Source: Elmis aenea
Taxonomy: Eukaryota > Arthropoda > Insecta > Coleoptera > Elmidae
Length of the DNA stretch: 64,000 nt
Assembly: GCA_947652605.1 (NCBI GenBank)
Contig: OX393577.1
Location: 67,046,108 to 67,110,107 of the forward strand
Direction: 5' to 3'
This document shows, one piece after another, positions 7,092-60,200 of this stretch (position 1 is its first letter; each line of letters starts with the position of its first letter). The position numbers and the translations under genes were made by a program. The notes beneath the pieces were generated by a model. That model did not search any database, was not told the origin of the DNA, and was given only the letters and a program-made list of their open reading frames with translations.

Positions 7092-7392
7092 AAATTTATC
7101 TTAACACAGATCACAAATGCTACTAGCACGTTAAATTTCAAACGATAACCATGGCAGCGTATAAATGAAGGGATTTCACAGTTAGTTTTGCTGTGTTGCC
7201 ATTATGTTAAGTGAGGCTTAGTTAATTTTCCTAGAAGGGAGAATGGTGCAATGTTTTCAGAATTTAAGAACACTTACTAAAGCGACAGATATAAGGAGGG
7301 GTGGTACAACTAGGCCTTAATCGAAACGCAAATCAATTTCTATTAGTATCTCCCGTAGATTCGTTACGTTAAGTACGTTTACAGAAAAAAAG

Positions 7393-8922
7393 ATGAGTTT
7401 CATAATCCCAGATTCTGTTTTACCAAAAGTAGTTTGTTTTGAGTGCAAATCTTACTTATCAGTGACTCCTGTTTGGTTAACAGCAGAAGGATGTAATGTT
7501 TGTGATCGGTGTGTGGCTGTAAAAGACTCCGAATCGGACGTCAATGGTCCAGAACCTGTGCGCAATGAAGCGTACGAAGAACTCGCCAAATTGTCCTTAT
7601 TTCCATGCAGCTATCGCCAGGAAGGATGTCCAGAAAACTTCAAGTTTAACAACAGCACCGAACACGAAAATGAGTGTCAATTTAGGACATATCCATGTCC
7701 TGCTGATCCAAAGCGAAAGTGCGAATGGACTGGAACTGCAAAGCAGATGGTCGAACACTACCAGCAAGAACACGAGGCACTTATCTTGCAGTAACCAACA
7801 TTCGAAATAAACATCAAGCAAAACATCGAAAACTATTTCTTGTATATTGTGCACCACTTGATATTTTTAATTCAGTTCAAGTGCTTGGTCGAGGAAGGAA
7901 AAATGTGGTTTGGTGTATTTCACGTGGGATCTACTAAAACAGCGAACGAAACTAATCATAAAATTACCTTAACGGGGACAGACAAAAATTTTAAAATTAA
8001 GGCCAAGAAAGCTTCTACCCTTACTTTAATGCACATAGAAAGTTCATATTCCACAGATATTAATTCGTTGCTTTCTTTTTTAAACAATCCCAACAAAATT
8101 ATTTGTCTAGTGCACATTAAAGTGCCTTTAAATATCGTAAAAGAGATGATTAATAATGATGATAATTCAAACGACGCCCGTAATCATCCTATTACTAACA
8201 GCAATAATTTGGAACGTAACCAATGTCCCCATTGTAGTATATTTATGGTTCCACCCATATATCAATGTCCTGAAGGACATATTACATGTGAGGAGTGTTC
8301 AACTTATAAGAATGATTATTGTAAGACGTGCGATAAAGATGATTTAAAACTATTCCGTAATAGTGAATTGGAACTAATTTCAGAGTCATGTGTTTATAAT
8401 TGTAGATGAAAGCATTGTAATCATCAGGGCTTTGATGATTACCATATAAGAATTCATGAAATGATATGTAGCAGGAGAATTTATAAATGTGTGTTTCATG
8501 ATGATTGTAAATATTCCAGTTCGTTTGAAAATTATAAACTGCACTTGATTGAAGATCACAAACTTGAATTATTAAAATCTACTTTTTTTCTTAAAAAAGA
8601 TCTTGATTATGGTGGTCAAAATGTGTTTATCCAAATTGACAACGAAGTAATATTATTAAAAGTAGAAAGTACGGAAACCGTTTTTAGATTGTCTTTTAAT
8701 CATTATGGGTTTCAAAACGTTTCTAAAATGTTTAATTTTAATGTTGATATTCACGGAAATGTAAATAAATCTCATAAGTTTAAACTAAGTGATGCTGTGG
8801 ATAACACATCATCATGTATGTGTTATTGTATGTGCATTTCTAAGTCATCGGTGTCATACTTTATCAAAATTACAGGTTTTTCTTTTGTAAACGGTAGCGA
8901 ATTGTATTTCAATTACGATTAG
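7393..8922 (+). pseudogene. tandem double SIAH/SINA-like RING E3 ligase, interrupted by two in-frame stops
   Basis: SIAH-family proteins are E3 ubiquitin ligases with an N-terminal RING, a SIAH-type double zinc finger and a SINA substrate-binding fold. One uninterrupted frame covers 510 codons holding two such units. Unit 1 (7393-8130) has a shortened RING with CFEC near codon 16, a zinc-finger region (FPCSYRQEGC, then YPCPADPKRKCEW, with HYQQEH) and a SINA-like beta region (LVEEGKMWFGVFHVGS). Unit 2 (8215-8922) has a fuller RING (CPHC, CPEGHITCEEC, YCKTC), then a zinc finger, then a SINA-like region. An in-frame TAA at 7792-7794 ends the zinc finger of unit 1, and a TGA at 8407-8409 sits in the zinc finger of unit 2. 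Each is one C-to-T change from CAA and CGA. No intron or frameshift is visible, so decay looks recent. Stop-codon readthrough is a less likely alternative. Confidence 0.8.
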
Positions 8923-18589: not shown

Positions 18590-20147
18590 TTACTTACATG
18601 CGAACGCTTCACCGATAATTTGAGCAACCCTATCTTGATAATCAGTAAGGATTTTGTCGACACATTCGTTCGCATAGTTTCGAATGGTAATGGACCTCAA
18701 ATGCCCAGCCCTGTGGGTCGCTATAGCTTCCATTATCATATGTTTAATCGGTAAAACATCATTCTGTATAACCTTCTTGTAGCAGGTAATTTGTTGAAGG
18801 GCCGGTTTCTTCGAGCACGAACTCATAGTGTCTATAAACTCCTGTCCCTTGTTCATGGCGATCGTTATTATTTTACTTACGTCTCCTGAATTGTCCTGAA
18901 TGTCGCTCCTTGCTTGTGTAACGCATTGCTGTAGGAGGCTTTGACCTAGCTGGATGTCTTTCTGGATTCTTGGCTGCACACCGTAGGTGCAAATGGAATT
19001 GTTCGAGTTGCTAATACACGATAATTCTGCAAATATAAAAGCTGCTAAATCATCTGTTCGATAAAATAATGTTGCATGGATTTAAGACTGATTACATTTT
19101 ATGACCGGTATTTTTTCTGCATCCGGCCAGAAAATCAGTTGTTAGCGATAAATTTTTAGCCTGGAAAATACGTTTTCACTGGCCTAGGTCAGAAACTAAC
19201 TGGCTGCCATGGTAATAACAACTCTTTACCGGCCTATACCGGAAAGTACTTGGTTGCCATGGTGATGAGTTGTTTTGTTAATTTGCGTTATCAAACAAGC
19301 GTCATTATACCACCAAGCGAGTTTGCATCTATACTTTTTTGAGTTATTGTTTGATTATGGATGGTGACGATAGTGATTTTGGTATCAGTGGCGGACTAAG
19401 AAAAAATATTGTACGTAGCATACCCGTAAAGTGTCTTTACTGGACTCGTATCCTTTCAGGACTCGCCAAGGCTCGTCCAGTAAAGTATCACGTTCTTGTT
19501 ACAAAAATAACTATTACTTACTGACTAAGGCTAGTTCCTCGATTAAACTAAGTTGTTCCCGGCCTCTATGAACCAGTTTTTCCACTTCCTTCACAACATT
19601 TTCATCTGTTTGTTTTCCTTCTTCAACCACAGCAATTTTGACCCCTTGAAATATTTCTTGGACGCTAGATAGTAGATTTCCTTGTTCTTCTTTAGTAGGA
19701 ATATTCACAGCGGGAACTTGTGGGGGTGGTACACAAAGCACACTCTACAAGGAACGAAAGAAATACAAGATAAACTCAATTTGATATATTATATGTAATC
19801 CATTTTAAATATAAGTGTACGTAAGTTTAATTATAAAAACACTTACCATGACATTGTGTCAAAAACAATCAATTCTTGAAGAAAAACTATACCTGTTTCG
19901 AGACTCTTATCTTCTTATCAGCAAATCATTTCTTTCTTATGTAATAGAAGTATTAAATAAAAGAATAATCTATTGACGGAAACACGAGTCTCAAAACTGG
20001 TTTAAATATTCTTTAAGAAACAATTCTTCCATGACTTAAATACTTTTTTAATTACACTTGTTAAAACTTAGTGCGTAAACTAATGTTAGTTTAATAGTGA
20101 CTTACCTGAAGTGCAATTAGTGTAAATAAAATTGTTAATGAATGCAT
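18590..20147 (-). CDS. secreted cysteine-containing helical protein, TsetseEP/DUF725-like
   Basis: Three exons on the minus strand: 20147-20106, 19744-19522 and 19026-18590. Introns begin GTAAG and GTAAGT and end TTGTAG and TTGCAG. The joined product is 233 residues. Residues 1-18 (MHSLTILFTLIALQSVLC) are a signal peptide, so the protein is secreted. The rest is polar and helix-rich with cysteines at about 92, 101, 123, 159, 170, 210 and 232. The pattern LQQC, MSSC, ITCYKK, ANEC and a final Cys near the C-terminus resembles the TsetseEP (DUF725) family of insect secreted proteins, whose role is poorly known. That family call is a pattern match from memory and moderately sure. The stop follows GCATGTAAGTAA, which also looks like a donor; the terminal Cys argues for real termination. 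Confidence 0.8.
19100..19290. repeat. three diverged tandem units in intron 2 of the secreted-protein gene
   Basis: Three related units of about 65 bp share ACYGGCC, AGAAAnTnACTGG and GGTTGCCATGGTRATnA words. They are intronic and non-coding. Just downstream, 19431-19484 has 10-bp inverted arms (TTTACTGGAC / GTCCAGTAAA). Confidence 0.6.
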
Positions 20148-46251: not shown

Positions 46252-46620
46252 GCTGTGAAACAAAAACTTTTAGTAGCTGAAATGGATTTTCTTAGACGAT
46301 CTACCAGAAAGGCAAAAATAGAAAATAGCAGAAATGAGAAAATAAGAAGGATAGGTAGCAAGAGAAGGAATGTTATAGAAGAAATTCAAAAGAAGCAACT
46401 TGTTTGGTACGAGCCTACGAGCATGTCAGCAGGATTGGAGAAGAAAGATTACCCAAAATAACAATGAATGGAGATCAGTAGATAGACAAAACCGGCAATG
46501 CTTCAAAAAAACATGGAGAAGAGTTGTTTCAAAGTTATTGCAAAGGTAATAACATAAAGAAGAATGGAATTACAGGTGGCAATGGAATCGAGGAAAAGGA
46601 AAGTAACCACATTCGCTATA
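46252..46620 (+). mobile_element. LINE type B, 3' end
   Basis: Plus strand gives AEMDFLRRSTRKAKIENSRN, IRRIG and IEEIQKKQLVWY, then, in another frame, the GRRKRGRP-type tail area, ending near 46,600. Its last part recurs at 49,060 and 51,200. Confidence 0.82.
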
Positions 46621-46825
46621 AAATCTATTTTCAGGTTAGACCAACTTACTGAAATAATTCTTAATAAACTGCATACAACAAAATAATCGTAGTTTCATTG
46701 TTAAAATTGCAAAACTTAATAAAGGAGTATCAAAACTTCCGACAACTTTTGTCCAGTAATGCAAACCTTTGGATAATTAAGACTCTTTCAAATTAATTTT
46801 CATTTGCACTTTCATTGATTTATCA
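46465..46825. repeat. segmental duplication, copy A
   Basis: LINE 3' fragment plus 200 bp of flank (TTCAGGTTAGACC, AATAAAGGAGTATCAAAACTTCC, TTTGGATAATTAAGAC). Copies B (49062-49450) and C (51225-51600) match in the same orientation. This is the spacer that was multiplied with the pacifastin exons. Confidence 0.85.
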
Positions 46826-46971: not shown

Positions 46972-46977
46972 TTTATT
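46972..46977 (-). terminator. AATAAA signal, pacifastin gene A
   Basis: AATAAA on the minus strand, 97 bp after the stop at 47074, in a 3' flank that is shared with the gene at 51.8 kb. Confidence 0.55.
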
Positions 46978-47073
46978 TTCACTGGTCTCTAATAATACAA
47001 TTTAGTTCAAAATTATTTGATCTTGAATATGTTAGTACTTATATAGAAAATATAGAAACCGTAGTGGATCATT

Positions 47074-48314
47074 TTAACACCTGTGAGCGGTACAAATATA
47101 ATCATTATCTTGTAAACACCAACATTCGTTACATTTGTTCTTCCAATTTGATCCCTTAATGCAATTCTTCTTGTGTTTCATAAATTCGGCACTGAAAATA
47201 CATGAAATTACATTTGAATACTTTTCAGAACTTATTAACCAACAAAAACTCCGCGCGACTAAAAATATATAGCAAAAAAATAGAATCACTTTTACCATAA
47301 AATTTTCCCTTTAATAATAAAGGGTCTTTGTTTAAAGTGTTTCATCAATTAACGTTTAGATTCACAAGTGAAAATTAAATCGAATAGTCTTCAATACGAA
47401 TGAGCTCTAACGTTTTACAAAGTAACGCGATTTTATGAACTATTTGTTCAACTTTTAAATAAGTTCACATATACATTTTGTAACCACTTTTTACAGACCT
47501 TTTTATTTAAATAATTTCATTTAAAATACTTAATTTAAAGACTAAACTAAGTTTCTTGTAAGTTTTGATTTTAGTTGAATTGTGTCGCTTGGAGTAGTTC
47601 GTTAGGAAACAGTTGTTATTTACCATTCCATCCAGGTACAGCTACTTATTTTATTATTACCACAACTGCAATAATTGCAATCATTTTCCCGGTAAGATAC
47701 ATCATCTTTACAAACTGAAAAACAAATACCTAAGATGTTAGTTGGATGTGTGTAGTACAAAACCGAAAAGGCTCCTTGTTAAATGTAATACAAACACTTT
47801 TTAAATTTTTACACTGCGATAAATAATATTAACAAAATATATTCGTTTCAAAAATATTGCAACAAATTAATGTATGTGGGGTGTCAAAAACTTAAAAGTT
47901 TATAAATGAAAAATAAGTAAGCGTAAGAATATTTATTATATATATCATGTATCTATGTCAAAGTACATCTATAGCTTTTAATAAGTCATAATTATACGAA
48001 AATAATCAGAACAGTATTACTGACGACAACTACTGTAAACTATTCAAAGTAATGAAAAGTTGCAAAAATTACGCTGGTGAATCAATTTTAGCGCGTTTTT
48101 GTTTTGTAAATAAATATACTACTACTTAAATTCATCACAAATTTAATCACTATTATTGTATACTGACATAAAATTTTTAATTTCAAAAATGTAGGTGCAA
48201 CTGTTACATAAATAATAGTGTCTATAATTGGTTTAAATAATTTTTATCATTACCGAAATCTTCTCCAACAACCGCAACTATTACAAACAATGACAAAATT
48301 ACGCAAAATTTCAT
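47074..48314 (-). CDS. two-domain pacifastin-type serine protease inhibitor, gene A
   Basis: Three exons: 48314-48254, 47714-47624 and 47191-47074, joined in phase to an 89-residue secreted protein. Residues 1-18 are a signal peptide (MKFCVILSLFVIVAVVG). Domain 1 (residues 22-51) has cysteines at 22, 33, 36, 38, 46 and 51. Domain 2 (61-89) has them at 61, 71, 74, 76, 84 and 89. Both fit the pacifastin rule C-x9-12-C-N-x-C-x-C-x7-C-T-x3-C. Pacifastins block trypsin- or chymotrypsin-like proteases; P1 (second residue after Cys5) is Trp48 in domain 1 and Ala86 in domain 2, so the targets are probably not trypsin. The last Cys of domain 1 is completed by splicing (TG|GTAAAT ... TTTTCAG|T). Read unspliced, exon 2 ends TGG-TAA. 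The TATA box of the sister gene is altered here (TACAAA). Confidence 0.82.
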
Positions 48315-48550
48315 TGTTTAAGGTTGTTTTGTAATGCTTATAACAATTTTGATTAAAAGGAACATGCAGTGCAATTTGTAGGATAGGCCAAAAAAAAATT
48401 TTATTATCCAATTGTTTTACCCTATGTATTTGATAACCGATTGTTCCTAAACAATAGTCAATAAATGTATTTATTTGACAATTAAATTTTGTAGATTTGT
48501 GCCAATTAAAAAAGGTTTTAATATGTTGAAATTTATTAATGCAAATCATT

Positions 48551-48630
48551 TTCGCAACTTTTCCTACATTTTTAAAACACCAACAACCAATATTTTCTAA
48601 TTGTGCAATTTCGCATATAATCTTTATGGA
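48551..48630 (-). pseudogene. decayed pacifastin domain exon
   Basis: The minus strand retains CATAAAGATTATATG, then GAAAATATTGG and GTTGGTGTTTTAAAAATGTA, matching the exon at 50640-50742. The stretch with the second Cys and Asn codons is deleted. Confidence 0.7.
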
Positions 48631-48659
48631 AAAACAAAGTTTATACATTTTAATTAATA

Positions 48660-49055
48660 CTCTTTCGTTCTATAACCTTAACAACAATTCTACGAGACCA
48701 AAATTATGACTGCTTTACTGCAAAAATTGTAAAAGTTAATAGAAGAAAATTCAAAGTTCCGACAATTCAAGTGAAATAATACAAATTGAGATAATTTTGC
48801 ATTTAATTTTTGTTTGCACTGTTATTGATATTGATTCATCAAAATTAGCTGCAAGAATCGTAATCAAACAAAAATATTTATTTGTATACAGTTTTTTACA
48901 CAAATTAAATTATTCACGAAGACTGCACACTCCTTAAAAGATCATAGTTTAAAATGAAAACTTTATCACAATAGTACAATATTTTTTTTTGTCTTTAATA
49001 AGACAGTTTTGTTCAAAAATATTTGATCTTAAACATTAAAGTATTAATAAAAAAA
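48660..49055. other. duplicated flank of the pacifastin array
   Basis: Non-coding. 48,665-48,720 (CGAGACCAAAATTATGACTG) recurs near 49,620 and 50,790; 48,955-49,035 recurs near 51,110 and as the 3' flank of both complete genes. Confidence 0.7.
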
Positions 49056-49061
49056 CCAAAA

Positions 49062-49450
49062 TGAATAGAGATCAATAGATAGACAAACCGAAAATGCTCC
49101 AAAGAAACGTGGAGAAACGGTGCTTCAAAGGCATCGCAAAGGAAATAGATAACATAAAAAATAACGGAATCACAGGAGGCAATGAAAACAAGGAGAGAAA
49201 GGCAACCACTTTCCCTGTAATATTTTGTTTGAGGTAAAACCTACTTACTGGACACAATTCCTCATAAACTATATACAGCAAAATATTCTTAATTTTTTTA
49301 CTGTTAAAATTGCTAAACTTAATAAAGGAGTATCCAAACTTCCAACAATTCATGTCAAATAATGCTAATCTTTGGCTAATTAAGACACTTTAGCAGTTAA
49401 TTTTCATTTACACTTTTATTGACCCATCAAAATTATTTACGAAAATCGCA
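49062..49450. repeat. segmental duplication, copy B
   Basis: Same LINE 3' fragment (GAATAGAGATCAATAGATAG) and flank as 46465-46825. Confidence 0.85.
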
Positions 49451-49768
49451 ATCAAACAAAATGATTTAACAATATTTTTAATCATCAATATATTTATTAA
49501 TTAAAGATGGCAATATTTTAACAGCATTAGATTCCTTTATCACGAGTGTTGATATCATGATATTTATGAGAATTAAAAATGCTGATCAATTTTAATTGAT
49601 ACTCTTTCTTTCTATTGCCTTAACAATTCTACCAGACCAAAATTATGACTGCTTTACTGGCACTACTTTTGTATCCTGTCATAAGGTTTTTAATTTCAAA
49701 ATTTTGGTACAACTATTATACATAAAAAATTTGTGTCTATTAGAAGTTTTAATACTTTTATCCTTAAC

Positions 49769-49828
49769 AAAATTTTCTTCAGCAACCGCCGATATTACAA
49801 ACAATAACAAAATTACCCAAAACTTCAT
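49769..49828 (-). pseudogene. orphan pacifastin signal-peptide exon
   Basis: Minus strand codes for MKFWVILLLFVISAVAEENF, the same signal peptide exon as genes A and C. The donor is damaged (GTTAAG where the sisters have GTAATG or GTAAGT), and the phase at this site would be 0 rather than 1. No exon 2 follows within 1 kb, so this copy is not functional. Confidence 0.8.
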
Positions 49829-49932
49829 TCTTTTATTTTTTTTTGTAATATTTAACACTACAAACAATACTCTTGACTAAAGGGATCTTGCAGTTCAATT
49901 AATATGATTGTTGAGATCCAAACAATAGTTAT

Positions 49933-50053
49933 TTATGTACCAAGGCAGTAAAGTTAGACTTTTTATCACGAGTGTGGATATTATTTGCCGAGACGAATTT
50001 GATGCAAATAACCACGTGAGAGATAAAAAGGAACTTTACTGCCGAGGTGCATA
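49933..50053. repeat. foldback repeat, 121 bp
   Basis: Arms GGCAGTAAAGTT...CTTTTTATC and GATAAAAAGGAACTTTACTGCC, with inner ACGAG/CACGTG-like and TTATTTGC/GCAAATAA arms. MITE-like, within the pacifastin array. Confidence 0.78.
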
Positions 50054-50059
50054 TTAAAC

Positions 50060-50635
50060 TTTTTCTGCGATCGTCAAAGAAATAGCGAAAAATCAAGCAA
50101 ATACATAAATTTTTACTTCATCTGTCAGATTCTCATTCTCTTGTCAAATATCTTGTATCTTTGAACAAAAGCACGCTCAACTTTTTTAAATTCAACCAAT
50201 AAGCGTAGCGCATTTTACGATTGCAGAAAAAATAATTATTTTATTACCTTATTATTTTAGCCTAATTATTTGATAAACCATTGTTCCCTAAATAATAGTC
50301 AATAAAGTATATATTTGACAATTAAATTTTATAGACTTGGGCCAATTAAAAAAGGTTTTAATTATTTTGAAATTAATTAATGCAAATCATTTTCGCAACA
50401 GCTCAATTTGGCCTCTGCCCTAATTTGTAAATCCACAACAAATTATGCATGTGTATATTTAATCAGCACGTGTTATAGGCACATCTTTTAATAAATGCCG
50501 TCTGTACGTGTCATATATTATTATCTATATTTCTCATTTAAAAATCAGTAAACGATTACTAGTGGCAAAAAATACATTATTTTAAAAATATTAGATTCTT
50601 TAGATGTTTATGTAGTTGTAGTGTTAACAACAGCT
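50060..50635. other. array spacer
   Basis: Non-coding. 50,270-50,400 matches 48,425-48,550 and 53,340-53,480 (CCTAAATAATAGTCAATAAA words), the upstream flank shared by the array genes. Confidence 0.65.
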
Positions 50636-50639
50636 GCTC

Positions 50640-50742
50640 TTAAATTGTTTTGGCGATGCACGCTTTTCCTATATATTTAAAACACCAACATTTATTGCAT
50701 CCCTTTGTCCAATATTCTCCAATTAAGCAATCTTTATGAGTA
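50640..50742 (-). CDS. lone pacifastin domain exon (possible third or alternative domain)
   Basis: An acceptor CATCTTTAG precedes 50742. The exon begins in the same phase as exon 3 of genes A and C and codes for a domain with CLIGEYWTKGCNKCWC, then 7 residues, then Cys5 and AKTI-stop. Cys1 to Cys5 fit the pacifastin pattern; Cys6 is absent. It lies downstream of gene C (minus sense). It may be an alternative last exon spliced from TG| of gene C exon 2, or the remnant of another gene copy. There is no own signal peptide. Confidence 0.55.
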
Positions 50743-51224
50743 CTAAAGATGCTTATTAATTTTTCATTAATACTCTTTGTTTCTATTACGTTAACAACAA
50801 TTCTACGAGACGACAATTATTGTGACTGCTTTACTGCAAAATTTGTAAAACTTAATAAAAGAAAATTCAAATTTACGTTGAATTATACAAATCTTTGGTG
50901 AATTAAGATGCTTTTGCTTTTAATTTTCGTTTGCACGTTTATTGATTCATTAAAATTAGCTGCAAGAATTGTATTAAGCAAAAATATTTATTGGTATACC
51001 GTTTTATAATTAAATTGTCTAATTCACAAAAAAGTGCACAGTGAAATTATTTACGACGACTGTATAGCCATTACAGGATCATAGTTTTAAATAAGAACGT
51101 TATCACAATAGTACAAGGTTTATTTTTTTAGGTCTATGATAAGACACTTTAGTCCAAAAATATTTGATCTTAAACAATGAAGTATTTATAAGGAAACCAT
51201 AGAGTAGTAGAAAGACTACCCAAA

Positions 51225-51600
51225 ATAACTATGAATAGACAAACCGGGAATGCTCCAAAGAAACGTGGAGAAGAGGCGTTTCAAAGGTATATCAAAGCGA
51301 ATAACATAAAAAAAGAGCGGAATCACAGGAGGCAATGAAAACAAGGAGAGGAAGGCAACCACATTCCCTGTACTATCTTTTTTCAGGTTAGACCTACTTG
51401 CTGGACCTAATTCTTAATAAACTATATACAATAAAATATTCTTAGTTTCTTTACTGTTTAAATTGCAAAATTTAATGAAGGAGTATGAAAACTTTCGACA
51501 ATTATTGTCCAGTAATGCAAATCTTTGGCTAATTAAGACATTTTAGCAGCTAATTTTTATTTACACTTTTATTGAACCATCAAAATTATTTACGTAAATC
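51225..51600. repeat. segmental duplication, copy C
   Basis: Same LINE 3' fragment (AATGCTCCAAAGAAACGTGG) and flank as copies A and B. Confidence 0.85.
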
Positions 51601-51752
51601 GCAATCAAACAAAATGATTTATCAATATTTTTAGGCAAATTACATTGTGTAATCCACAAAGAAGTGTTCTTAAAATAATGTAGGACAGGATAACTGGACA
51701 GCCATAACAGGGCCATAGTTTTTAATAAAAACGTTATCATCATAGTCCAATG

Positions 51753-51758
51753 TTTATT
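51753..51758 (-). terminator. AATAAA signal, pacifastin gene C
   Basis: AATAAA on the minus strand, 55 bp after the stop at 51813, in a flank matching the 3' flank of gene A. Confidence 0.55.
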
Positions 51759-51812
51759 TTTACTGGTTTCTAATAACACAGTTTAGTTCAAAAATATTTG
51801 ATCTTAAATATT

Positions 51813-53218
51813 TTACTCTTCGTGCGGAAACCATTGTCGCTCATTTGGGCTGAGGTCAGTGCAAAAGTAATTGTTATTACCTACACACGTACAACTTTGA
51901 TCTATGTTTTCCCATGTTGAACCCTTAACGCAAGTCTTCTTGTGTTTCTCAGATTCGTTACTGAAAATACATGAAATCAACTTTGAATATCCGTCAAAAC
52001 TTTTACCAACAAAAACTCCGTGTGATAAAAATAATGAAATTACTATCACGATACAATTATCACATTTTTCTCTTTATTATATAGTGTCTTAATTAAAGAT
52101 GTTCCGTTAATTTACATATAGATTGACAAGTAAAAATTAAATCGTAGAATCTTCAATACGGTTGAGCCCCGACGTTTCCTAGACTAACGCGATTTTAAGA
52201 AGTTTGGACCAAATTTGAATGTTTTACTGGGTATCTAGGTTACCATAATAGTTATCGAAAATCTGTTATCAGGCTGTTGAGCTATTTTTTTGAGAAAAGA
52301 ACGCCTGTGTAATCAGATTTTTCATATCGCTTTTCATTTTGGCACTATAGACGAAAATTGAAATTTCATCATTTTTAAAATTTACTATAACTTCTTTATT
52401 TATTAAAATAAAACAAAATGTTAAATTTTTTTAAATAGAAACTCTAGTTAGCCATGACTTTATATAAAAGAGTTTATTTTTAGCTTTTTAAAAACACATC
52501 TATAAAGATCTGTGTAAAAAACCTTAATATCATTTTGTTGTTTGAATAAATAAAGAAGTTATGGTAAATTTTCAAAAATAATGAAATTTCATTTTTCATC
52601 TGCAGTGCCAAAATTGAAACGATATTAAAAATTTGATTACATAGGCGTTCTTTTCTCAAAAAAATAGCCTAATATATCTATATCACATTTTCGCTAATTA
52701 GGTAACCCAGATACCCTGTAAAACATTCGAATTTGGTATACCGAATTTGAAATCACTTTTTACAGGCAGTTTTATTTAAATGATTTTATTTAAAATTTTT
52801 AATTTAAAGCGCCGAAACTATGTATCTTGTAAGTTACGATCTTAGTTGAATTTAAATTGTGCCGCTTAATTCGTTAGGAAACAATTGTTATTTACCATCC
52901 CTTTCTGTCACAACCTCCTATTTTAGATTCAAAAGTACAAAAACATCCATTGCAGTCATTTTTCTTGTACGGTAAACCTGGTTGGCAAACTGGAAAATAC
53001 ACTTTTTTAAAAACCTAAGATGCTTAAGGTATTTAATTAAATGGAAATCATAAACTTTTAACCTTTAAAAAAAATTACAGAACCTTAATTTTACAAAATG
53101 GTTGTACATAAAAAATTTGTGTCTGTAAGAGGTTTGAGTACTTTTTATACTTACGAAAATCAAATTCATCAGCAACCGCAACTGCTACAAACAATGACAA
53201 AATTACCCAAAATTTCAT
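51813..53218 (-). CDS. two-domain pacifastin-type protease inhibitor, gene C, domain 2 lacking Cys2 and Cys6
   Basis: Exons 53218-53155, 52989-52896 and 51960-51813 join in phase to 101 residues. Residues 1-16 are the signal peptide (MKFWVILSLFVAVAVA). Domain 1 has cysteines 23, 34, 37, 39, 48 and 53 (the last made by splicing TG|T) and P1-P1' Arg50-Lys51, which predicts a trypsin inhibitor. Domain 2 keeps Cys63, 76, 78 and 86, equivalent to positions 1, 3, 4 and 5. Position 2 is Asp73 and position 6 is Pro91. In known pacifastins Cys2 pairs with Cys6, so one whole disulfide is lost and the other two (1-4, 3-5) could still form. A 10-residue tail (ERQWFPHEE end) follows. Intron 2 carries a foldback element. 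The TATA box is intact. Confidence 0.82.
52207..52737. mobile_element. foldback MITE in intron 2 of pacifastin gene C
   Basis: Arms of about 200 bp: left starts ACCAAATTTGAATGTTTTAC, then TGGGTATCTAGGTTACC; right ends with the counterpart GGTAACCCAGATACCCTGTA, then AAACATTCGAATTTGGT. The homologous intron of gene A is about 500 bp shorter and lacks it, an empty site. Confidence 0.88.
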
Positions 53219-53286
53219 TTTTTGAATTTATTTTTAATATGTAACACTGCTAATAACACTCTTGATTAAAAGGATCTTGCAGCGCA

Positions 53287-53293
53287 ATTTATA
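53287..53293 (-). promoter_or_regulatory. TATA box of pacifastin gene C
   Basis: CCTATAAATTGC on the minus strand, 75 bp upstream of the ATG at 53218. The homologous site upstream of gene A reads CCTACAAATTGC (near 48,380), and that upstream of the orphan exon at 49.8 kb is also altered. Confidence 0.6.
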
Positions 53294-53299
53294 GGATTT

Positions 53300-53980
53300 T
53301 TGAGGTCCAAACAACATAAATTATTTTATTATCCAATTGTTTTACTCTAATTATTTCGTAAACCATTGTTCCCTAAACAATAGTCGATAAATTTATATAT
53401 TTCCCATTAAATATTATATGTTTTTGCTAACGAAAAAACATTTTAATTGGTTTGAAATTAATTTATGCCAATAATTTTCGCAACAACAGAATTCGGACTT
53501 TGCCCTTAATTTTTAAATCCAGTACCTCATGTGTTTATTTAATTACGACTCATTATAAGCATTTGTGTATCAGATATTACTATTATTACTTCACATTTTA
53601 AAATAAGTAACGTTTATTAATTAAAGATAACAATATTTTAACAGAATTAGATTCCTTCAAATTCTAAGCAGTGACAATGTAATAGAGGAACAACGGCTTC
53701 TTATTTAATACATGCGTAAACTAATCTATCTAAAGGTGTTTACTGTACATAAACAGGATTCGAGAAATATGAGAAGATACTACTTGACAGCTGTGTTGAA
53801 ATTTGTCATCTTCCGTCGTAAACAATTCTCCATCTAAAGAAATGAGAATTCTAAACATTATTTTTATGAATACATATCATCAGCATTACCCCATATTATG
53901 CACAGACATTTATTCACAGAACGCCTGTAGATTTTAATTTCAAACTAAACAGTGCTTAAGTAAACCGATTATTGCACAAT
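53300..53980. other. upstream flank of the pacifastin array
   Basis: No gene. 53,340-53,480 is shared with the spacers at 48.4 and 50.3 kb. Confidence 0.55.
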
Positions 53981-55379: not shown

Positions 55380-56290
55380 TTCACTCACTTGCCTATCCAG
55401 ACCTCTTCTACCTTTCAGTGTAGAGAGGATTTGGAGTTAAGTTTTGGCTTTTCTTGCACTAGTCTTACAATTTTTTTCTGTCCTTTGCAACCTTGATGGC
55501 ACTGTTCCACTCCCTGTCTTCATTTATTAATATATCCAACACTTGATTATCCCATGTTTTTCTAGGGCGTCCTCTAACCTTTTTCTTCCCCTTAACTTCC
55601 CATACATTCTTTGCGGTTCTTGTGTCCGGCATCCTCACCATGTGTCCCCACCAACTTAATTGTTTTCTTTCTATCTTTTCTTGTAATGACTCTACTCCCA
55701 GGGGTTCTCTCATTACTTCATTCTTTATTCTATCCCTCTTTGTTACTCCTAATATCCCTCTCAGGAATTTCATCTCACAAGATGTCAGCATGGATTTATG
55801 TCTATCTGTTAGATTCCGGGACTCCGCTTCATAATATGTTAAACTGGTACCAAAACGGTATTGTAGATTTTCTTTTGTTGGCCTACTAACTACCCTCTTA
55901 TTTATAAAGGGCTTTAGCAATGAATTTGCAGTGTTTATGCGGTTGCTTATCTCCCTTTCCATGTATCCATCGTTTTCTATCATCGAACCTAGATATTTTA
56001 TGTTTTCACCTGATCTTATTGTAGCGTTCTCGATTGTTATCTGAGCGTCCAAGCCTTCATCACCAATCACCAATATTTCTGTCCTATTTGTGTTAATATT
56101 CATGCTATATTTAGCCAACTCTGTTTTCCAACGTCTTGTATTTTCTACCAGATTTCTTTTGGAAGTGGCGCATAGTATGAGGTCGTCCGCATACATTTAT
56201 TCCTTAACTTCAACTGGTTGTAAGTTTCTGTATCCTAGGGCCACTCCTTTTGCTTCATTTTTTACATCCTTTCGTCCATGATTGCAATAA
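55380..56290 (-). mobile_element. LINE type B reverse transcriptase, long open 3' part
   Basis: The 243-codon minus-strand frame 55465-56196 starts at the catalytic box YADDLILCA. It then has MNINTNRTEILVIGDEG, IKYLGSMIENDGYMEREISN, the thumb region (MKFLRGILGVTKRDRIKNE) and LSWWGHMVRMPDTR with RGRPRKTWD. Upstream (56,197-56,290) a further broken RT block can be read. Few disabling changes, so this is one of the younger LINE copies. 5'-truncated, without endonuclease. Confidence 0.88.
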
Positions 56291-58904: not shown

Positions 58905-60200
58905 TTTAGTTATGAGTCCTTCTACTGTTAGGTGTAATACTGTTGTGCTGACTTTTTTCCATGTTTTCCTGCTATGTGCTAGCTTTTTTATGTTTTTCCT
59001 CTTGATGTTTCTATCCGTTGCTGTTTTTTTTTACTGCGTCTTGCCAGGTTTTTCTCGGTATACCTCTTTTGTTTTTCCCCGTAATCTTGCTTCATAGACT
59101 TTTCTGGTTAACCTTTCTTTTTTCATCCTAAGAATGTGACCCAACCGTCCCAGCTATCTTTCTTGTATTTTTGTTTCAACTGATTTTATCTTTAATTGTT
59201 TCCTGTTTCGTTTCTGATTCTATCTTCTTTGGGTTTTCCTTGGATTTTTCTTAGAAATCCCATTTCGGCTGCATTCACTCGGCTACTATATTTTTTGTGA
59301 GTGTGAGTGAGCTTATTTCTTTGTCCATTCCTCCTTTTTTCTCTATGATAACTCCTAAATATTTAAAACTTTCTACCTGTTCCAGCCTAAGCCCATTTAA
59401 AGTGATGTCATGCCCTTTGTTCTCTGTTGTAACGATCATAAATATAGTTTTTTCGGTATTTATTTTCATATTCCATGTACATTCCTCCATTTTTTTTCTA
59501 TGATCACTCCTGTTCAAACCTAAGAAAGTGATGTTCTCTGTTGTAAAGATCACAGTTTTAGTTTTTTCTGTATTTATTTTCATATAATTTTTTTCCAATT
59601 CCTGGTTTAGAGTTTCTAGATTATTTTGCAGATTTTCTGTTTCCGCGACTAAGACCATGTCGTCTGCTCATTTTTTTTTTTTTTTTAGTTGTTTAGGTGA
59701 AACGCTCACTTTTTGTTTTACTTCTTTAATTACCCCATCTATAACTACTCAAAATAATAATGGACTGAGCACGCATCTTTGTTTCAAGCCCTCTTTTGTT
59801 TCAAACTCTTCCAATTCTACATTTTGGGTTCTTACAATATTCACCATTTTTTCGTATATCGCTTTTATTATGTCGAATGTTTCTATTTCTATTCCCTTTC
59901 TTCTTAGGCCTTTCCATACCTATTTTCTTTTGATTTTATCAAGTGCTTTTTCCAAGTCTATAAAACATTAATATACTAGCTAGTTTTTTGTTAAGCTCTT
60001 TTCGATTGTTTGTCTTAATATAAAAACTGGGTCCTTCCTCTTCTGAAACCGTATTGGGATTCTTCTGGTGTGCTTTCTATTTTTATCTTTAATCTGGCTT
60101 CTATTACTCTTCCGTATTTTACCTGGTACACTCATCAATGTTATTCCTCTACAGTTAGAATAATCCATTTGTCCCCTTTCTTGTATAATGGTAAAATTTT
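58905..60200 (-). mobile_element. LINE family A, longest copy (copy 8)
   Basis: Minus strand, 5' to 3': SNCRGITLMSVPGKI (about 60,160-60,110), several broken blocks, a poly-T run at about 59,670-59,690, the ADD box with MVLVAETE (59,658), and KYLGVIIEKKGGMDKEI near 59,330. The broken C-terminal region and the 3' end (58,915), next to TAAATAAATAA, follow. The segment MKINTEKT...TTEN is present twice (about 59,585 and 59,475), an internal duplication. Non-functional. Confidence 0.87.

Follow-up and report, generated by a model that had tools for sequence, protein, structure and literature searches.

What do the short, cysteine-rich exons on the minus strand between 46 and 54 kb of this stretch of the Elmis aenea genome encode, and how did they come to be repeated? 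The stretch analysed here (the window) spans 64,000 nucleotides of contig OX393577.1, and all plain coordinates refer to it. An initial annotation proposed that it holds a tandem array of two-domain pacifastin genes, together with a transposon fragment that could date the array. Pacifastins are arthropod serine protease inhibitors, the family MEROPS I19. They are encoded by clustered genes with a variable reactive site, and their in vivo targets are mostly unknown.

The locus is best explained, with a probability of roughly three in four, as a tandem series of genes for small, secreted pacifastin precursors, each predicted from a signal exon, a domain-1 exon and a domain-2 exon, in which the sixth cysteine of domain 1 is rebuilt by splicing. 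One predicted gene (A) is complete and a second (B) has an open frame and an altered second domain, and the divergence of the domain exons suggests diversifying selection. The family itself is known, and the window adds further predicted members.

Two predicted genes with a shared exon design

Read along the minus strand, the array starts with gene B (53218 to 51813). This is followed by a lone terminal exon called L3 (50742-50640) and by the orphan signal exon of a unit C (49828-49768); a decayed exon comes next (about 48630-48551), and gene A (48314 to 47074) closes the array. Both genes lie where the initial annotation had placed them, and their exons, GT-AG junctions and open joined frames were found. 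The predicted products are 89 (gene A, 47074-48314) and 101 amino acids long (gene B, 51813-53218).

48254..48314, minus strand: gene A exon 1 with its ATG, signal-like peptide MKFCVILSLFVIVAVVGEDF, phase-1 end at a GTAATG donor
47624..47714, minus strand: gene A exon 2, pacifastin domain 1 with P1-P1' Trp-Met, whose last two bases, TG, open the Cys6 codon; GTAAAT donor
47074..47191, minus strand: gene A exon 3, rest of Cys6, Lys-Lys, pacifastin domain 2 (P1-P1' Ala-His), stop
46972..46977, minus strand: AATAAA signal on the downstream side of gene A
53288..53293, minus strand: TATAAA box on the upstream side of gene B
53155..53218, minus strand: gene B exon 1, signal-like peptide MKFWVILSLFVAVAVADEFDF
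52896..52989, minus strand: gene B exon 2, pacifastin domain 1 with P1-P1' Arg-Lys, Cys6 codon split
51813..51960, minus strand: gene B exon 3, a second domain that lacks Cys2 and Cys6, C-terminal extension beyond the position of gene A's stop
51753..51758, minus strand: AATAAA signal on the downstream side of gene B
52208..52737, no strand assigned: fold-back element in gene B intron 2, a 530-base inverted repeat with arms matching at 78%, not found in gene A

In both genes, the intron after the signal exon is in phase 1 and the intron after domain 1 is in phase 2. The latter interrupts the Cys6 codon of domain 1 (TG/T), such that TG closes exon 2 and T opens exon 3. As a consequence, each exon 2 reads as ending in tryptophan and the domain-1 exons look truncated; in A and B alike, domain 1 reaches six cysteines solely after splicing. 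This arrangement is a warning for gene finders, as a first domain read exon by exon seems one cysteine short.

Assignment to the pacifastin family

The profile search of the joined proteins that the initial annotation had proposed, run with the Pfam model PF05375 (Pacifastin_I; cutoff 27.9 bits), places A over the cutoff (43.1 bits, E 3.5e-11) and B under it (24.3 bits, E 2.6e-5). Among single domains, domain 2 of A passes by itself (29.1 bits), the first domains of A and B fall short at E below 1e-4 (24.4 and 23.2 bits), and domain 2 of B reaches 11.1 bits (E 0.35). Gene B is assigned to the family because of its kinship with A, the two being grouped at 98/93 in a 22-row gene tree with 11 of 19 inner branches unresolved.

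The spacing Cys1-x9-12-Cys2-N-x-Cys3-x-Cys4 and Cys5-x4-Cys6 is present after splicing in both domains of A and in domain 1 of B. Domain 2 of B (without Cys2 and Cys6) and L3 (without Cys6) do not have the six cysteines. None of the three complete domains has a glycine where the 2009 consensus expects one, 3-4 residues after Cys4, and Cys5 is followed by threonine in both A domains and by aspartate in domain 1 of B.

Structural comparisons point in the same direction. A profile search of the PDB with 20 domain-1 sequences gave 16 matches at E<=1 (best 5.8e-7), all named protease inhibitors or pacifastins, and one with 8 terminal domains gave 13 matches (best 0.013) with the names of locust-type protease inhibitors or pacifastins. 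Domain 2 of A modelled alone forms three strands (mean predicted local distance difference test score 83.8, predicted template modelling score 0.50), and the first 17 of 30 PDB matches of this model in Foldseek are pacifastin-family inhibitors. A search for homologous proteins returned one candidate and none at E<=1. Candidates from other families were also considered: the Pfam matches to FnI_RECK, PSP94, OmpG porin and DUF5100 all fall under their own cutoffs. The proposed identity and shared exon design are thus backed by Pfam, PDB profiles and the fold search, more firmly for A than for B.

The two complete three-exon genes of the initial annotation are confirmed in the sequence, B with an open frame and an altered second domain. 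It is rather unlikely, though worth serious attention, that B is a pseudogene in early decay and that A alone works. Its branch in the tree is long (1.81 against 0.28 for A), and its domain 2 has lost two cysteines and the usual stop. However, the start, splice sites and frame of B are intact, the gaps in its coding exons relative to A are 3 bases long, domain 1 still has its six cysteines and Arg-Lys at the reactive site, and the TATAAA and AATAAA elements are kept. When neutral evolution was simulated at a distance of 0.14 per lineage, with indels at the rate of the non-coding alignment, an intact ATG, splice sites and frame survived in 0.6% of runs for one lineage. The two lost cysteines, Cys2 and Cys6, are disulfide partners in pacifastins (PMC2689174), but this paired loss was not used as proof of function because 3 of the 15 possible cysteine pairs would be partners by chance.

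An expansion across the genome

Profile searches covered the 516-Mb genome in 302 contigs, in which the window is C2:67046108-67110107. PF05375 gave 38 matches at E<=0.001, rising to 71 at E<=10; none of 14 control genomes matched, which is little informative for an animal family. At least 23 complete genes of the three-exon, two-domain type are predicted (22 plus one called M4), A and B included, their signal exons having been chosen by hydropathy and donor (g04 and g18 are partial). Apart from the window, such genes lie at C2:67.90-67.95 Mb, C2:32.53-32.58 Mb, C2:62.98 Mb and C6:28.25 Mb, with an extra domain pair at C5:50.543 Mb and two more places at C7:28.91 and 28.93 Mb. The pacifastin genes have therefore expanded within this genome.

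The same splice arrangement is seen in the related genes. An acceptor AG stands two bases ahead of the Cys1 codon in all 21 listed domain-1 exons (chosen by their TG/GT end), and exon 3 opens with T or C, either of which would complete a cysteine codon begun by TG, in 23 of 23 terminal exons, whose acceptors were chosen regardless of that base, and also in M4. Two terminal-domain exons at C2:62981820 (L030) and C2:32535671 (L016), like L3, have no good domain-1 exon nearby.

A cluster of another type, with whole domains in each exon, lies at C7:30.76 Mb and is largely repeated on a small contig, C54. The domains on C7 (L021-L022) and on this 114-kb contig (L023-L024) are near-identical, and the C54 copy may be the other haplotype.

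Reactive sites and predicted action

The hydrophobic first exons of A and B are signal-like by hydropathy, and the precursors would be secreted, possibly with cleavage at the Lys-Lys pair ahead of domain 2. Each six-cysteine domain would then act as a substrate-like inhibitor, with its Cys5-Cys6 loop docked into a serine protease. With tryptophan at P1, domain 1 of A would be directed at chymotrypsin-like enzymes, and domain 1 of B, with arginine, at trypsin-like ones.

Across the family, the Cys5-Cys6 loop of domain 1 has four residues in 21 of 24 sequences and 7-13 residues in the relatives M1-M3. Its P1 position is occupied by 12 different residues (lysine or arginine in 9 sequences) and P1' by lysine or methionine in 17. 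Domain 2 differs: in the 19 of 24 sequences tallied, which exclude g05 and g06 (longer loop), M1 (Ser), B (Asp), L3 (Ala) and M4, P1 is asparagine in 9 and acidic or amide in 11 in all. Such acidic or amide-type residues made up 13% in the 2009 survey, which gives their specificity as unknown (PMC2689174). In g05 and g06 (locus L011), the reactive loop of domain 2 is longer by two residues and contains an additional cysteine (CTCPPKYC, CTCLPKYC).

Excess divergence in the domain exons of A, B and M1-M4

Coding exons that outpace the surrounding non-coding DNA are often seen in genes engaged in evolutionary arms races. Between A and B, the fraction of differing positions is 0.13 in exon 1, 0.37 in exon 2 and 0.34 in exon 3, compared to 0.25 in intron 2, 0.24 in the 3' flank, 0.20 in the 5' flank and 0.17 in a long interspersed nuclear element (LINE) fragment repeated with the genes. 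The domain exons differ at 73 of 206 positions and intron 2 plus flanks at 237 of 1009 (Fisher p 6e-4), or 297 of 1174 when intron 1 is included (p 0.004). The LINE fragment gives a rough internal neutral yardstick for such a contrast.

The same pattern is seen in four related genes elsewhere in the genome, M1 to M4. The domain exons of M1 and M4 differ at 39 of 224 positions (17%), their non-coding DNA at 64 of 944 (7%; p 3e-6). The corresponding counts are 19/209 and 34/945 for M2-M3, and 57/209 and 142/941 for M1-M2. The excess is found in all six M pairs, each at p<=0.0015, though the pairs come from four genes and are not independent; non-coding counts were confined to shorter, homologous flanks. 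Domain exons have thus diverged faster than the adjoining well-aligned non-coding DNA. A codon maximum-likelihood grid was run freely on six pairs (uncorrected per-pair p, kappa set to 2, one set of base frequencies), and two of the three M pairs included gave omega above 1: 3.45 for M1-M4 (p 0.044) and 4.43 for M1-M2 (p 0.016). With time fixed from the non-coding DNA, omega is 3.9 for M1-M4, 2.7 for M1-M2, 2.7 (2.69) for M2-M3 and 1.85 for A-B. A counting method on full proteins gave 1.97 for M1-M2, 1.56 for M1-M3, 0.64 for A-B, 0.43 for M2-M3 and 0.30 for g16-g17; several other pairs were saturated. Diversifying selection, which we infer as the driver of domain-exon change, would be clearest in the M genes; in A and B it is likely but not proven, being less clear because omega from codons alone is 0.77.

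A number of observations weigh against this account of the array. The array, its genes and their inhibitors are known here from sequence alone. B scores below the Pfam cutoff, the Foldseek matches of A domain 2 stand at E 0.15 or weaker, and gene A has TACAAA (48375-48380) at the place of the TATAAA of B. Intron 1 differs between A and B at 0.36, like the domain exons, but the alignment is poor with 374 gap columns. The contrast is reversed in g01-g02 (domain 52/215, non-coding 415/951) and g05-g06 (36/215 and 729/1508), although the non-coding DNA of both pairs is poorly aligned, and their free omega values of 0.37 and 0.25 indicate purifying selection. Free omega is not different from 1 in A-B or in M2-M3 (0.60). 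Since omega exceeds 1 in these two pairs only with the non-coding clock, their silent sites also look raised.

Raised silent sites are what would be expected if gene conversion or exon replacement had homogenised introns, flanks and LINE while older exon differences were kept. Indeed, codon position 3 differs at 20 of 63 sites between the domain exons of A and B, and both free omega values fit. We consider this explanation less likely than not, as the same contrast is seen even though 5 Mb separate M1 from M4 and M3 sits on a different large contig, and as M1-M2 have a silent change in just 1 of 36 codons for the same residue.

A broader proposal builds on diversifying selection and can be advanced tentatively, at less than even odds: that one branch of the family is under toxin-like diversification, with signal exon, introns and flanks staying alike, both domain exons including the reactive loop outrunning neutral DNA, and a second domain with a mostly Asn-P1 loop perhaps aimed at unusual or foreign proteases. 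Among the papers listed, a search at the level of titles and abstracts found no report of exon-over-intron divergence in pacifastins, a result that does not show there is none. Because the array combines copies that are intact, altered or broken with a transposon yardstick, and has fast-exon relatives, it allows an arms-race driver to be tested.

Broken copies

The lone domain exon and the decayed exon of the initial annotation are at their places, as is the orphan signal exon, which has lost its donor.

49768..49828, minus strand: unit C, orphan signal exon (MKFWVILLLFVISAVAEENF) whose donor GT is gone
50640..50742, minus strand: lone terminal domain exon L3 with phase-2 acceptor, open frame and stop, Ile in place of Cys6; matches PF05375 at E 9.98
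48551..48630 (about), minus strand: decayed copy of L3 that has lost its acceptor AG, Cys1 and frame

L3 and the DNA just downstream match the terminal exons and downstream DNA of M2 and M3, whereas exon 3 of A and B has no such match in the same comparison; L3 therefore looks like an M-type terminal exon. Similarity to M1, M2 or M3 is also seen in the DNA upstream of A, B and C and, for B and C, in the signal exon. Unit C and the two lone terminal exons are broken or superseded pieces.

Alternatively, exon 2 of B could be spliced to L3 in place of exon 3, yielding the same first domain with another second one. L3 retains a phase-2 acceptor, the joined frame of B exon 2 and L3 is open, and Tribolium tcpp-1 shows the same behaviour (TCPD-2/TCPD-3) with support from reverse-transcription PCR (PMC2689174). 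Still, alternative terminal exons are quite improbable here: L3 is without Cys6, no AATAAA lies within 100 bases downstream of it, unlike in A and B, its sister copy has decayed, its non-synonymous and synonymous rates against M2 and M3 are about equal, and its frame would be open by chance in about 13% of cases (0.21 x 0.62).

The LINE fragments and the order of duplications

LINE 3' fragments at 46439, 49052 and 51206 each adjoin a copy of one 3' flank; their repetition together with shared flanks, as initially described, is real. Two more copies of that flank carry no LINE; one stands just upstream of L3, the other just upstream of the decayed exon.

46280..46702 (5' end at least 46280), plus strand: LINE 3' fragment beside gene A, the longest copy
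49052..49296, plus strand: LINE 3' fragment of unit C
51206..51448, plus strand: LINE 3' fragment of unit B
50829..51203, minus strand: LINE-free 3' flank copy Bp, upstream of L3
48713..49050, minus strand: LINE-free 3' flank copy Cp, upstream of the decayed exon

In a tree of the flanks, Bp and Cp group together (100/100), apart from the LINE-bearing A, B and C, and B joins C at 91/90. Jukes-Cantor distances are 0.27-0.36 between LINE-free and LINE-bearing flanks, 0.23-0.27 from A to B or C, 0.12 for B-C, 0.18 for Bp-Cp and 0.16-0.26 among the LINE copies. As the LINE-free copies of the same flank form a group of their own, an older duplication preceded the LINE. A long target-site duplication of the LINE was ruled out as their source, since the copy beside A extends further 5' (at least to 46280) than those of B and C.

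The order of events is thus a duplication, then the LINE, then the tandem duplications. The idea that the LINE inserted before the duplications stands for the last tandem ones and fails for the older one. The LINE, lying between two rounds, gives a relative order and a rough neutral yardstick but no absolute date for the array. The fragment occurs at no fewer than 23 places in the genome, 21 of them outside the array. Four of those end at query bases 336-343 and none beyond, and no dispersed copy listed extends past about 46622; the final 80 bases before the shared flank may therefore not be LINE.

Other features in the window

Open frames at 7321-8922 represent a seven-in-absentia-like gene; the first of them matches the Sina zinc finger (PF21361, 2.5e-19). 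On the minus strand, reverse-transcriptase fragments (PF00078) lie at 55465-56196 and 59275-59667, the second alone over the Pfam cutoff, and an open frame at 18590-19081 has a weak DUF725 match (19.9 bits, cutoff 22).

Comparison with known systems

Rapid, adaptive evolution with gene clusters and variable reactive sites has been described for the family (PMC2689174). Other work on it concerns an expansion in triatomines (PMC5921304), lacewing venom (PMC12758981) and domain counts in weta (PMC5683631). One strain of a moth shows raised expression of a pacifastin in the bursa copulatrix (PMC4007636); by analogy, reproductive tissue is another possible setting for these genes.

The closest parallel in exon design is tcpp-1 of Tribolium castaneum, with a signal exon, a one-domain exon 2, an exon 3 in which a stop codon follows domain 2, and one more domain beyond it (PMC2689174). 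In the window, the candidate counterpart of that last domain occupies a separate exon, L3, some 1.1 kb off with a LINE fragment in between, and no longer has Cys6. Clustered paralogous pacifastin genes are likewise found in the nvpp genes of Nasonia vitripennis, at least 8 in number and some backed by expressed sequence tags (PMC2689174), compared to at least 23 complete predicted two-domain genes plus a multi-domain cluster here. The locust inhibitors PMP-C, SGPI-1 and SGCI/SGTI share the six-cysteine spacing, the two-residue reactive site between Cys5 and Cys6 and the predicted fold, whereas the glycine after Cys4 is displaced here and P1 of domain 2 is often asparagine or otherwise non-classical. 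Secreted multi-domain precursors also occur among the pacifastins of assassin-bug venom, in Platymeris rhadamanthus (PMC6891600); nothing observed here points to a venom. Finally, exon-segment switching in snake venoms (PMC2711939) offers a likeness in accelerated exon change, which in the M genes includes the reactive loop.

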